Assembly: GCF_900114485.1 (NCBI RefSeq)
Contig: NZ_FOTF01000001.1
Location: 62,001 to 126,000, forward strand
Direction of reading: 5' to 3'
Origin: Loktanella salsilacus
Lineage (GTDB): Bacteria; Pseudomonadota; Alphaproteobacteria; Rhodobacterales; Rhodobacteraceae
Length of the DNA: 64,000 bases
The notes below the pieces were generated by a model. It did no database searches and was not told the DNA's origin. It saw nothing but the letters and a program-made list of their open reading frames with translations. Positions 6,913-13,372 of the stretch are shown here, in pieces. The position numbers and the translations under genes were made by a program. Position 1 is the stretch's first letter, and each line of letters begins with the position of its first letter.

Positions 6913-7914
6913 ATGGCCGTAAAAGTCGCAATCAACGGATTTGGACGTATCGGGCGCAACGTGCTGCGCGCGATCATCGAATCCGGCCGCACCGATATCG
7001 AGGTCATCGCGATCAACGATCTGGGCCCGGTTGAAACCAACGCCCACCTGCTGCGCTTTGATTCGGTCCATGGCCGTTTTCCGGGCACTGTGACCACCAC
7101 CGAAGACACAATCGACGCAGGCCGCGGGCCGATGCGCGTCACCGCGATGCGCAATCCTGCTGACCTGCCTTGGGGCGACGTGGATGTTGTGCTGGAATGC
7201 ACCGGTATCTTTACGTCCAAGGAAGCCTGCCAGGCGCACCTTGAAAACGGCTCTAAGCGGGTTCTGATTTCCGCCCCCGGCGCGAACGCTGACAAGACCA
7301 TCGTGTTTGGCGTCAACGAGGGCACTCTGACCAAGGACGACATTATCGTATCCAACGCGTCCTGCACCACGAACTGCCTGTCCCCTGTCGCCAAGGTGCT
7401 GAACGACACTGTCGGCATCAACAAAGGCTTTATGACAACGATCCACAGCTACACCGGCGACCAGCCGACGCTGGATACGATGCACAAAGACCTGTACCGT
7501 GGCCGCGCTGCTGCCCTGTCGATGATCCCGACGTCCACGGGCGCAGCCAAGGCTGTTGGCCTTGTTCTGCCAGAGCTGAACGGCAAACTGGACGGCGTCG
7601 CGATCCGCGTGCCGACCCCGAATGTGTCGGTCGTCGACCTGACCTTCGAATCCAGCCGCGACACCACCATTGAGGAAATCAACGACGCGATCCGCGCCGC
7701 TGCTGATGGCCCGATGAAAGGCATTCTTGCCTACACAGACCTGCCGATGGTCAGCACCGACTTCAACCACGACCCGGCCTCGTCCACCTTCCACATGGAC
7801 CAGACCAAAGTGCTTTCGGGCAACATGGTTCGCATCCTGACATGGTACGATAACGAGTGGGGTTTCTCGAACCGGATGTCCGACACGGCTGTCGCCATGG
7901 GTAAACTGATCTAA
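6913..7914 (+). CDS. gap: Glyceraldehyde-3-phosphate dehydrogenase, type I
   Basis: The 333-residue enzyme oxidises glyceraldehyde 3-phosphate to 1,3-bisphosphoglycerate. NGFGRIGR (residues 8-15) is the Rossmann motif, and Asp36 in INDL favours NAD over NADP. The catalytic Cys151 lies in SNASCTTNC and His178 in TTIHSYTG; both are intact. The start at 6913 has AAAGGATGA upstream; an upstream GTG frame lacks support. It is preceded by the small membrane protein and the 24-bp palindrome and closed by a terminator, so it is probably monocistronic or cotranscribed with the small gene. It can work with tkt and tpiA of this window in triose metabolism. Confidence 0.97.
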
Positions 7915-10412: not shown

Positions 10413-11912
10413 ATGCAAGACCTGACCCATTACATGAACGGTGCCCATGTTGCTGGCACGTCCGGCCGCTTTGCCGATGTCTTTAACCCTGCCACTGGCG
10501 AAGTGCAGGCCCGCGTGCCGCTGGCCAACGCTGCCGAGATGGACCAAGCCGTTCAATTCGCCGCTGCCGCCCAGCCGAAGTGGGCCGCCGTCAACCCGCA
10601 GCGCCGCGCCCGCGTGATGATGAAGTTCGTCGAACTTCTGCACCGCGACATGGACAAACTGGCCGAGGCGCTGTCGCGCGAGCACGGCAAGACCCTGCCC
10701 GACGCCGCTGGCGACGTGCAGCGTGGCCTTGAAGTTGTCGAATATTGCATCGGTGCGCCGCAGTTGCTGAAGGGTGAATTCACCGACGGCGCTGGCCCCG
10801 GCATCGACATGTATTCCATGCGTCAGGCACTGGGTGTTTGCGCTGGCATCACGCCGTTCAACTTCCCCGCCATGATCCCGATGTGGATGTTCGCCCCGGC
10901 CATCGCCTGCGGCAACGCCTTCATCCTCAAGCCATCCGAGCGTGACCCGTCGGTCCCCCTGATGTTAGCCGAACTGATGGAAGAAGCCGGTCTGCCCAAG
11001 GGTATCCTGCAGGTCGTCAACGGTGACAAAGAAGCTGTTGATGCGATTATCGATCATGACGTGATCCAGTCGATCGGCTTTGTCGGCTCGACCCCGATCG
11101 CCGAATATATCTATGGCCGCGGTTGTTCGCAGGGCAAGCGCGTGCAGTGCTTTGGCGGTGCCAAGAACCACATGATCATCATGCCCGACGCGGACATGGA
11201 TCAGGCTGCCGACGCGCTGATCGGCGCAGGCTACGGCGCAGCAGGCGAGCGTTGCATGGCGATCTCCGTCGCCGTGCCCGTGGGCGAGGAAACAGCCGAC
11301 AAACTGATCGAAAAGCTTAAGCCCCGCATCGACGCGCTCAAGGTCGGCCCCTACACTGGCGGCAATGACGTGGACTACGGCCCCGTTGTTACCGCTGCGG
11401 CCAAGGCGAACATCCTTAAGATGGTTGAATCCGGCATTGCGCAAGGCGCAGAACTGGTCGTCGACGGCCGCGACTTTAGCCTTCAAGGCTACGAGGAAGG
11501 CTTCTTTGTCGGACCGCACCTGTTCGACCGCGTCACCACCGATATGGACATCTACCAAAAGGAAATCTTTGGCCCCGTCCTGTCCGTTGTCCGCGCGCAG
11601 GACTACGAAGAGGCGCTGGCGCTGGCCATGGACCACGAAATGGGCAACGGCACCGCGATCTATACCCGCGACGGCGACGCCGCCCGCGACTTTGCCAACC
11701 GTGTCAACGTCGGCATGATCGGCATCAACGTGCCGATCCCCGTGCCGCTGGCCTATCACACCTTTGGCGGCTGGAAGAAATCCGTCTTTGGCGACCTGAA
11801 CCAGCACGGCCCGGATGCGTTCAAGTTCTACACCCGCACCAAAACGGTCACATCCCGTTGGCCGTCGGGCATCAAGGACGGCGCTGCGCTGAACTTCAAA
11901 CCAATGGACTAA
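10413..11912 (+). CDS. mmsA: Methylmalonate-semialdehyde dehydrogenase (CoA-acylating)
   Basis: MmsA converts (methyl)malonate semialdehyde to propionyl- or acetyl-CoA at the end of valine and inositol breakdown. The 499-residue ALDH-fold protein has the family signature ITPFNFPAMIP, the NAD-binding GFVGSTPIAEYI region and catalytic Cys281 in GERCMA, the form typical of CoA-dependent MmsA. The lack of the general-base Glu of ordinary aldehyde dehydrogenases at FGGAKNH agrees with this. AGGAGGA lies six bases before the ATG. It is divergent from the LysR gene and separated by a terminator and leader from the rest of the valine genes. Confidence 0.95.
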   Translation: MQDLTHYMNGAHVAGTSGRFADVFNPATGEVQARVPLANAAEMDQAVQFAAAAQPKWAAVNPQRRARVMMKFVELLHRDMDKLAEALSREHGKTLPDAAGDVQRGLEVVEYCIGAPQLLKGEFTDGAGPGIDMYSMRQALGVCAGITPFNFPAMIPMWMFAPAIACGNAFILKPSERDPSVPLMLAELMEEAGLPKGILQVVNGDKEAVDAIIDHDVIQSIGFVGSTPIAEYIYGRGCSQGKRVQCFGGAKNHMIIMPDADMDQAADALIGAGYGAAGERCMAISVAVPVGEETADKLIEKLKPRIDALKVGPYTGGNDVDYGPVVTAAAKANILKMVESGIAQGAELVVDGRDFSLQGYEEGFFVGPHLFDRVTTDMDIYQKEIFGPVLSVVRAQDYEEALALAMDHEMGNGTAIYTRDGDAARDFANRVNVGMIGINVPIPVPLAYHTFGGWKKSVFGDLNQHGPDAFKFYTRTKTVTSRWPSGIKDGAALNFKPMD

Positions 11913-11935: not shown

Positions 11936-11967
11936 AAAGGCGCACCCTTCACTGGGTGCGCCTTTTT
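11936..11967 (+). terminator. Intrinsic terminator after mmsA
   Basis: A 12-bp perfect stem AAAGGCGCACCC/GGGTGCGCCTTT (loop TTCACT) is followed by further T. It ends the mmsA transcript before the acyl-CoA dehydrogenase. Confidence 0.9.
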
Positions 11968-12014
11968 CACGTTCAGGGGAAATGACAAACATTTTGTTAA
12001 ACCGCGTGAAACCA

Positions 12015-12157
12015 TTCTGCCCGGACGCCGTGAATATCTGCGAAAGGCGGCCCCAAACCCGCCTGATATCCGGCCAGATCCGGGTTGCCCCCAATGCAGC
12101 CCCTGTCCCGGTGCGGCCCGCATCCGTCCCAAGTTCGGATGCGGGCTTTATCTTTTT
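12015..12157 (+). ncRNA. Candidate structured leader or small RNA before the acyl-CoA dehydrogenase operon
   Basis: The 320 bases between mmsA and the acyl-CoA dehydrogenase hold no convincing gene but can fold in three nested helices. These are CCCGGA (12020) with TCCGGG (12079), ATATC (12034) with GATAT (12065), and GGCGG (12046) with CCGCC (12059). A second intrinsic terminator follows. A transcript starting after the mmsA terminator would be about 130-150 bases. It could be an attenuating 5' leader of the downstream valine operon or an independent small RNA. The promoter and exact ends are not visible with confidence. Confidence 0.35.
12116..12157 (+). terminator. Intrinsic terminator upstream of the acyl-CoA dehydrogenase
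   Basis: An 11-bp perfect stem GCCCGCATCCG/CGGATGCGGGC (loop 9) is followed by TTTATCTTTTT. It lies 76 bases before the next start codon and serves no annotated gene, since mmsA already has a terminator 150 bases earlier. Confidence 0.85.
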
Positions 12158-12232
12158 GACAAACCGCTGACCCTTCGGCATCCTTTTCTGAACGCACGTT
12201 CAATTCACGCGCGCGGCAACTCGGGGGGAACG

Positions 12233-13372
12233 ATGGATTTTGCACTCAGCCAAGAGCAATCAGCGATTTTTGACATGGCGCAGGCCTGCGGAGCAGAGCA
12301 TATCGCGCCCTTCGCCCGGCAATGGGAAAAAGACGGCACCATTCCCCGCGATCTGTGGCCCAAGCTGGCAGAGCTGGGCTTTGGCGGGCTTTATGTGTCC
12401 GAAGAGTCCGGCGGCACCGACCTCAGCCGCCTAGACGCCACGCTGGTATTCGAGGCGCTATCAATGTCCTGCCCGTCGGTCGCCGCTTTCCTGTCGATCC
12501 ACAACATGTGCGCGCGCATGATCGACCAGTTCGGCAGCGACGACATGAAGGCCCGGCTGCTGCCCGACGCGCTAAGCATGGACACTGTGTTGTCCTATTG
12601 CCTGACCGAACCGGCCAGCGGATCGGACGCCGCCGCGCTAAAGACGAAAGCGGTGCCGACGGACGCGGGATACGCCCTGACGGGAACCAAGGCCTTCATC
12701 TCTGGCGCGGGGTATTCGGACGCTTATATCGTCATGGCCCGCAGCGGCGACGCAGGGCCCAAAGGCATCAGCGCCTTTGTCGTGATGGATGGATCAGACG
12801 GGCTCAGCTTTGGCGGGCTAGAGGATAAGATGGGCTGGCGCAGTCAGCCCACGCGGCAGGTCCAGTTGGACGATTGCAACATTCCTGCGGGTGACTTGCT
12901 AGGTGAGCTGGGCAAAGGTTTCACATATGCGATGAAGGGCCTTGACGGCGGACGGCTTAACATCGCCGCCTGTTCGCTGGGGGCCGCGCAATCTGCGCTG
13001 GATCAAACCCGCGCTTATATGGCCGACCGCAAGGCCTTTGGTAAATCCATTGACCAGTTTCAGGCGTTGCAATTCCGCCTTGCCGATATGGAAATCGCCA
13101 TGCAATCGGCGCGCATCTTTTTGCGGCAGGCCGCATGGAAGCTGGACACCGGCGCACCTGACGCGACCCGTTTTTGCGCCATGGCCAAAAAGCTCGTGAC
13201 CGAAACAGGGTCACAGGTTGCCGATCAATGCCTGCAACTCCACGGCGGCTACGGCTATCTGGCGGACTACGGGATCGAAAAAATCGTCCGCGATTTGCGG
13301 GTTCACCAAATCCTAGAAGGCACGAACGAGATTATGCGCATGATCGTCGCCCGCGACATGGTATCAGCATGA
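12233..13372 (+). CDS. Acyl-CoA dehydrogenase, probably isobutyryl-CoA dehydrogenase
   Basis: The 379-residue flavoenzyme has the three-domain ACAD fold with CLTEPASGSDAAALKT (FAD/substrate loop near residue 122) and the C-terminal LHGGYGYLADYGIEKIVRD. The catalytic base is Glu362 in ILEGTNEI. Placement in the operon with 3-hydroxyisobutyryl-CoA hydrolase and mmsB, and near mmsA, points to the valine pathway, where it would oxidise isobutyryl-CoA to methacrylyl-CoA. Substrate choice is inferred from context. The stop overlaps the next start by ATGA. Confidence 0.9.
   Translation: MDFALSQEQSAIFDMAQACGAEHIAPFARQWEKDGTIPRDLWPKLAELGFGGLYVSEESGGTDLSRLDATLVFEALSMSCPSVAAFLSIHNMCARMIDQFGSDDMKARLLPDALSMDTVLSYCLTEPASGSDAAALKTKAVPTDAGYALTGTKAFISGAGYSDAYIVMARSGDAGPKGISAFVVMDGSDGLSFGGLEDKMGWRSQPTRQVQLDDCNIPAGDLLGELGKGFTYAMKGLDGGRLNIAACSLGAAQSALDQTRAYMADRKAFGKSIDQFQALQFRLADMEIAMQSARIFLRQAAWKLDTGAPDATRFCAMAKKLVTETGSQVADQCLQLHGGYGYLADYGIEKIVRDLRVHQILEGTNEIMRMIVARDMVSA

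Follow-up and report, generated by a model that had tools for sequence, protein, structure and literature searches.

The window analysed here is a 64,000-nucleotide stretch of the Loktanella salsilacus genome, in which a spacer separates an aldehyde dehydrogenase family gene (mmsA, a name given in the initial annotation and supported by context only) from the acyl-CoA dehydrogenase gene (acd) that heads the downstream operon. On the 3' side of acd, Pfam recognises an enoyl-CoA hydratase/isomerase family gene and then a gene with 3-hydroxyisobutyrate dehydrogenase NAD-binding domains, a gene content that fits a valine operon. The features of the locus are listed in their order along the DNA.

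10413-11912, plus strand: mmsA, the upstream gene (Pfam Aldedh)
11936-11967, plus strand: T1, the mmsA terminator, flanked on both sides (A-tract/T-tract); 45% pairwise identity among five relatives
12008-12012, plus strand: predicted -35 element GAAAC of the small RNA (sRNA), ECF-sigma-like, invariant in 5/5 genomes
12026-12033, plus strand: predicted -10 region of the sRNA, CGCCGTGA, with the core CGTGA at 12029-12033; 7 of 8 columns invariant
12040-12157, plus strand: predicted sRNA of about 118 nt, its 5' end inferred from the -10 region and uncertain by several bases
12045-12064, plus strand: 5' hairpin of the predicted fold, AGGCGG-CCCCAAAC-CCGCCU, a sequence not common to the relatives
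12070-12111, plus strand: predicted outer stem (12070-12073 with 12108-12111) around the loop hairpin, with four pairs in L. salsilacus and as many as six in relatives
12083-12101, plus strand: predicted core hairpin GGUUGC-CCCCAAU-GCAGCC with an invariant C-rich loop
12116-12157, plus strand: T2, the intrinsic terminator with which the sRNA would end, including its U-rich 3' tail; the T2 loop, UCCCAAGUU, is C-rich too
12156-12184, plus strand: predicted acd operon promoter, TTGACA (12156-12161), 17 nt, CATCCT (12179-12184); 17-nt spacing and CATNNT in 5/5 genomes
12189-12202, no strand assigned: palindrome TGAACGCACGTTCA, which covers the likely start of acd and is probably a TetR-family operator
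12223-12228, plus strand: GGGGGG in the acd Shine-Dalgarno region, candidate target of the C-rich loop (from the G-run comparison)
12233-13372, plus strand: acd (Pfam Acyl-CoA_dh domains)

The initial annotation had reported two strong terminators with no gene in between, the second ending 76 bases before acd, and this description was borne out. The T1 stem-loop (11936-11965) has 12 pairs and a folding energy of -23.5 kcal/mol; T1 is possibly bidirectional. T2 consists of the arms GCCCGCATCCG (from 12116) and CGGATGCGGGC (from 12136), which form an 11-pair stem at 12116-12146 (-22.3 kcal/mol) closed by a 9-nt loop and followed by the tail TTTATCTTTTT, which reaches 12157 and shares two bases with the -35 box of acd. 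A simple terminator scan over 8 kb returned 14 terminator-like sites against 7.7 expected (sd 3.3); it reported T1 on the minus strand only and T2 only as a sub-stem, because the 9-nt loop of T2 exceeds the limit of the scan. None of the four open reading frames in the spacer (62-86 aa) has a Pfam match, and tblastn against four relatives never matched them over their length but hit only short pieces conserved as DNA, one of these with internal stops.

Conservation of the spacer within Loktanella

The genus group comprises nine genomes, including those of Loktanella atrilutea, L. fryxellensis and the Loktanella MAG LH_M9. All nine encode acd, and five of them (G000, G001, G002, G007 and G008) carry mmsA upstream of it; no mmsA turned up in the 1.5 kb flanks of acd from the remaining four. 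The conserved block is present in exactly the five mmsA-acd genomes and absent from the other four. A sixth DNA match in the genus, in G006, spans 31 bases (query 273-303) of the palindrome region only.

Conservation within the block is confined to islands. Calculated from five sequences, over segments that were picked after the alignment had been viewed and are thus descriptive of the pattern and not a blind test, identity amounts to 100% in GAAAC, 95% in CGCCGTGA, 94% in the loop hairpin and 88% in T2, versus 34% in the spacer that follows T1 and 24% in the 30-base 5' domain of the RNA; the whole sRNA promoter stretch is 71% identical. Further downstream, the acd promoter reaches 100% in TTGACA, 49% in the 17-base spacer and 77% in the -10 element (CATNNT), and is followed by the palindrome (87%) and the rest of the acd leader (44%). 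All 11 pairs of the T2 stem form in all five genomes, and T2 is more than a chance feature. The map as a whole is that of two putative promoters with a predicted structured RNA between them.

At acd, four of the five genomes have the palindrome exactly as TGAACGnnCGTTCA; L. fryxellensis (G002) has TGAACACCCGTTCA, which differs by one base. Fourteen TGAACGnnCGTTCA sites were counted in the genus, all in the five mmsA-acd genomes, versus none for a control word. Ten of these lie outside the acd locus, four before TetR-like and four before AMP-binding-like open reading frames, and Pfam confirmed one of each type (TetR_N/TetR_C_24 and AMP-binding). These sites suggest a TetR-type acyl-CoA regulon.

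Structure and putative promoter of the predicted RNA

The stretch 12040-12157 folds with -53.1 kcal/mol (z -3.78), a stability attained by none of 200 shuffled sequences, and the full-length folds of the four relatives range from z -2.02 to -5.14. When T2 is left out, one genome in five clearly beats its shuffles (z -3.61), with z -0.30 to -1.97 for the other four. T2 thus supplies much of the fold stability, and support for the structure therefore rests on conservation; what the aligned sequences themselves show is which parts are conserved, how these pair and how they are spaced.

Each of the five genomes can form all six pairs of the core hairpin, one of which is exchanged in a compensatory way and another changed from U-G to U-A. 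The loop CCCCAAU stays constant while the stem varies, from GGUUGC/GCAGCC to GGUCGC/GCGACC in G008. Loops with CCCAA occur three times in the L. salsilacus RNA (CCCCAAAC, CCCCAAU and UCCCAAGUU), and only the central one is invariant; the 5' domain is largely deleted in G002. The outer stem is paired in 90% of cells and shows changes on both sides in two of its six pairs. Taken together, core hairpin, outer stem and T2 pair in 97.4% of 115 cells, compared to 27-45% when the pairing partners are slid. Double changes were found in three pairs, a number reached by 31 of 500 shuffles; 5 of the 500 attained the covariation score, and 305 the number of pair types. RNAalifold predicted 26 pairs, with double changes in six. 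Coming from only five sequences, the covariation is thin, and we regard it as supportive but not conclusive.

A different architecture of three nested helices had been proposed initially. The word pairs concerned do exist (12020/12079, 12034/12065 and 12046/12059), but the outer two require bases 5' of the predicted start at about 12040. An RNA begun at 11968 would fold much like that proposal (z -3.41 with T2, -1.70 without it). Across the relatives, the three helices, which lie on a poorly aligned stretch, are paired in 42 of 70 cells (60%), versus 36-57% for slid controls; five of their pairs show double changes, a number matched by 26 of 500 shuffles. This conservation is weak, and the better conserved elements are the hairpin at 12083-12101, the outer stem at about 12070-12073/12108-12111 and T2.

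A small protein starting at the ATG within the invariant loop was considered and rejected. The ATG is preceded by CCCCCA instead of a Shine-Dalgarno sequence, and in L. salsilacus the frame is shifted and stops after 21 codons. The frame opens in all five genomes. In four of them it reads M(Q/R)P..ARIRP.. and meets no stop either in the terminator or in the remainder of the stretch; the likeness arises because the terminator stem is conserved.

The two boxes of the putative sRNA promoter, GAAAC and CGTGA, are separated by 16 nt in L. salsilacus and by 16 or 17 nt in the relatives. In box type and spacing this resembles two ECF-sigma promoter sequences, as given in the accessible parts of the respective publications: GTAAC(g,a)-N14-15-(t,c)CG(t,a) for EcfF (PMC3420878) and GGAAC-N17-20-GTT for EcfG (PMC6599016). 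Read as GAAAC-N17/18-GTGA, which is possible in all five genomes, the promoter matches the EcfG spacing, with each box one base off the EcfG consensus. It is probably ECF-driven, judging from this resemblance. GAAAC-N16/17-CGTGA is not enriched in the L. salsilacus genome (15 sites versus 23 for the reversed control), and the promoter assignment therefore relies on conservation in place.

The longer form GAAACTT-N14/15-CGTGA occurs at 8 sites in the nine genomes versus 3 for the control, and four of the eight are the sRNA locus itself. Of the remaining sites, two lie in the L. salsilacus genome, one in G008 between called open reading frames and one in G001 overlapping an apparent gene start. 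The two in the own genome, of the form GAAACTTT-N-CGTGA, are located 39 bases before a DUF7282 gene (L220:10157-10182, plus strand) and 18 bases before a DUF4864 gene (L221:7456-7482, minus strand); both may belong to the same sigma regulon. Inspection by eye of the open reading frames near three GAAACTT-N14/15-CGTGA sites revealed no sigma factor gene. L. fryxellensis (G002, L016:1272-1326) has a perfect inverted repeat here: one arm, TTTGGCGCAACC, falls in the -35/spacer part of the putative sRNA promoter, and the other, GGTTGCGCCAAA, is separated from it by 31 bases.

Distribution and comparison with known small RNAs

At gathering score, Rfam 15 recognised only tRNAs in the window. Below threshold, there was one RsaE line (E 2.8, 17.3 bits versus 79) and, in the five homologous loci, one mir-2071 line (24.9 bits versus 100). 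A DNA search of 295 genomes of the family, with two candidates scored per genome, yielded a match in four, the own genome included; the three others fell on the palindrome (two) or, by eye, on a coding stretch. Model R1, run over 394 family genomes with strict filters (E up to 0.01), gave 38 matches in 37 genomes, with 93.6 bits for the own locus and 33.9 for the next. Among 41 relatives, eight genomes had a match, five of them strong (89.5-109.9 bits) and the next at 24.7 bits. No homologue outside the genus with a score near those of the five was found in the family-wide DNA and R1 searches or among the 41 relatives, and as far as searched the predicted RNA is limited to part of one genus.

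By eye, 27 of the 38 R1 matches, the own locus not counted, were terminators, coding stretches or RNAs with CUCCUCC(C) loops. The top two R1 matches from outside the genus, L070 and L071 (33.9 and 30.9 bits), come from two other genera of the family and look cuckoo/CcsR-like by eye: they have C-rich hairpin loops of the CUCCUCC type, and their last hairpin is a terminator. Neither has an Rfam match at gathering score.

The distribution of the loop hairpin was followed separately. The word GCCCCCAATGC occurs at 58 places in nine genomes versus 7 for the reversed word. Of 29 GCCCCCAATGC loci, four are the sRNA, and the other 25 are without a hairpin plus terminator by eye. The loop lies within 6-12 bases of TTTT in 26 of 394 genomes, and the longest stem in 29 loci of this kind has seven pairs. 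A scan for the 19-base hairpin pattern in one genome per species, covering 84,980 species and possibly omitting the own and very near records, returned 44 stretches. Three are the sRNA and two belong to the element described next; for the other 39, inspection by eye of some 110 bases to each side revealed no such hairpin-terminator.

A different element with two hairpins was met in a Loktanella MAG (L044:68-137), where the second hairpin, its terminator, carries the GGTTGCCCCCAATGCAGCC hairpin of the sRNA. The gene downstream of this element (fold z -5.22) is, by Pfam, a pyrF-type one for orotidine 5'-phosphate decarboxylase. The same two-hairpin element, with the stem GGTCGC/GCGACC, is present on the minus strand of a Yoonia MAG (L050, about 7070-7140), and the letters downstream look alike by eye. 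It is possibly another sRNA with the same loop. Searched for in 248 family genomes, the L044 element gave weak matches in six (best E 5.8e-4), which apart from the hairpin of the own genome appear unrelated by eye.

Alphaproteobacterial small RNAs with C-rich loops bind G-rich stretches of mRNA. The available text on GsrN of Caulobacter crescentus reports an exposed C run in a loop, the most conserved part of the RNA, which is predicted to pair through six C with G-rich target sites; GsrN genes lie near ecfG/nepR/phyR in most species, C. crescentus being an exception (PMC5869019). The predicted Loktanella RNA resembles GsrN, by description, in its exposed C-rich loop (CCCCAAU, invariant in 5/5 genomes). 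It differs in that the loop is central and not at the 5' end, in that its gene adjoins mmsA and acd, and in the single base by which each promoter box departs from the EcfG consensus of the GsrN promoter.

Cuckoo, CcsR1-4 and SmelA075-SmelA099 are described, in the parts of the reports available, as anti-Shine-Dalgarno sRNAs (PMC3927594, PMC8307010, PMC10253847), and SmelA075/A099, which are grouped with RS0680a of R. sphaeroides, bear CCUCCUCCC loops (PMC3927594). Stem-loops with C-rich loops are shared with the Loktanella RNA, as far as these descriptions go, but CCUCCUCCC is absent from 12040-12157, a single copy per genome was found, and the neighbours are mmsA and acd instead of a DUF1127 gene. 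AbcR1 and AbcR2 of Sinorhizobium meliloti are, according to the accessible portion of the source, trans-acting sRNAs of 114-121 nt that silence transport and metabolism genes via anti-Shine-Dalgarno motifs (PMC8844928). Length (about 118 nt) and proposed trans action are similar; in contrast, the motifs CUCCUCCC (loop) and UUCCCCUC (linker) are absent from 12040-12157, and AbcR is described there with the neighbour lsrB and with LsrB and RpoH1 acting at its promoters. StsR of Rhodobacter sphaeroides, compared by its available description, would share stress-sigma dependence with the proposed RNA, but is 72 nt long and under RpoHI/RpoHII (PMC8307010). No publication on sRNAs of Loktanella was found in a literature search with limited coverage of subscription journals. 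The type of sRNA is known, and this particular RNA is probably new, limited to the genus and without an Rfam match.

Proposed function of the predicted RNA

The spacer is likely to contain an independent sRNA gene (12040-12157), the product of which, about 118 nt long, would act in trans by pairing its C-rich loops with G-rich mRNA sites. Of the two options initially raised, a small RNA or a conditional leader, the promoter-like block, the invariant hairpin loop and the terminator found in all five syntenic genomes favour the former. Transcription would begin at about 12040 from the ECF-sigma-like GAAAC-N16-CGTGA and end at T2 (12157). In the product, a 5' part that varies between genomes would be followed by a central hairpin whose loop, CCCCAAU, is fixed, and then by the terminator hairpin, which has another C-rich loop and ends in a U tail. 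By analogy with Caulobacter GsrN, it would pair in trans, C-rich loops to G-rich sites near mRNA starts, and it would act when its sigma factor is activated. Its transcription, the class of sigma factor, the pairing in trans and the targets are what we infer from the conserved elements. If expressed, it would represent an uncatalogued sRNA gene for which promoter type, loop and a candidate target can be named. The Rhodobacteraceae would then gain a GsrN-like regulator with a C-rich loop, one that might tie an ECF-type signal to the breakdown of branched-chain amino acids.

It is unlikely that the same RNA acts instead through a hairpin-binding protein or as an RNA sponge, an alternative to the Shine-Dalgarno pairing step and not to the RNA as such. 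A fixed loop on a compensating stem would suit protein recognition equally well, and the same 19-letter hairpin, or its compensated form, is found in the terminator upstream of the pyrF-type gene in the Loktanella and Yoonia MAGs. Against this, the G-run of acd accompanies the presence of the RNA, and those alphaproteobacterial C-rich-loop sRNAs that have been studied pair with G-rich or Shine-Dalgarno sites, according to the available parts of the reports (PMC5869019, PMC8844928).

Less probable still is a conditional 5' leader, an attenuator or riboswitch, in which RNA from the upstream promoter, serving as a second, stress-dependent promoter of acd, reaches the gene only if T2 is overcome. 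The upstream promoter does face acd, and the highly conserved T2 is the only terminator seen between them. However, acd is predicted to start beyond T2 in all five genomes from its own conserved TTGACA-N17-CATNNT promoter, and T2 itself is predicted to be formed with a mean pair probability of at least 0.996 in each of them. The initial remark that an antiterminator partner could not be seen agrees with our comparison of the upstream RNA with the T2 arms, in which 31 to 226 of 300 composition shuffles were as strong; no antiterminator clearly above chance emerged in any of the five genomes. The predicted start of acd after T2 and this result together disfavour the leader. In addition, no riboswitch was reported by Rfam, and conservation is lowest (24%) in the 5' part, which is where one would look for a sensor.

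Tandem terminators are common and the L. salsilacus genome shows no enrichment of GAAAC..CGTGA, but the least probable reading, in which T2 is a plain back-up protecting acd against read-through from mmsA and the promoter-like block arose by chance or is an unrelated site, leaves unexplained both the CCCCAAU hairpin (94%) and the GAAAC and CGTGA boxes, kept at near-constant spacing in all five genomes amid unconserved stretches.

For the proposed trans-acting sRNA, the adjoining acd mRNA, with its Shine-Dalgarno run of five to six G, is one candidate target. The run measures 5-6 G wherever the RNA is present (five genomes) and 3 G wherever it is absent (four genomes); this association may be inherited and not functional, because the two groups of genomes differ in their whole upstream context. 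As background, 258 other open reading frames in 324 kb of the same contig were considered with first-ATG starts, since a start picker based on canonical Shine-Dalgarno sequences gave a biased background. None of the 258 has a run of six and six have a run of five; when any ATG in the first quarter of the frame is allowed, the counts rise to two and twelve.

A more far-reaching scenario is speculative and in our judgement rather doubtful: the RNA and the acd Shine-Dalgarno run would have co-evolved, and the CCCCAAU loop of an ECF-driven sRNA would block translation of the operon, coupling stress to valine/acyl-CoA breakdown. The overlap of the U-tract with the -35 box would then let transcription of the sRNA also hinder initiation at acd, and the hairpin at a second locus would hint at a mobile or shared regulatory hairpin.

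The loop CCCCAAU offers only about five G-C pairs to acd. The raw duplex between loop and acd leader amounts to -12.4 kcal/mol, a value equalled or bettered by 16 of the 258 other open reading frames; with the start picker favouring canonical Shine-Dalgarno sequences, which misplaces acd, 15 of 267 are at least as strong. The neighbouring position of this candidate target makes loop-to-Shine-Dalgarno pairing easy to check by compensatory mutation.
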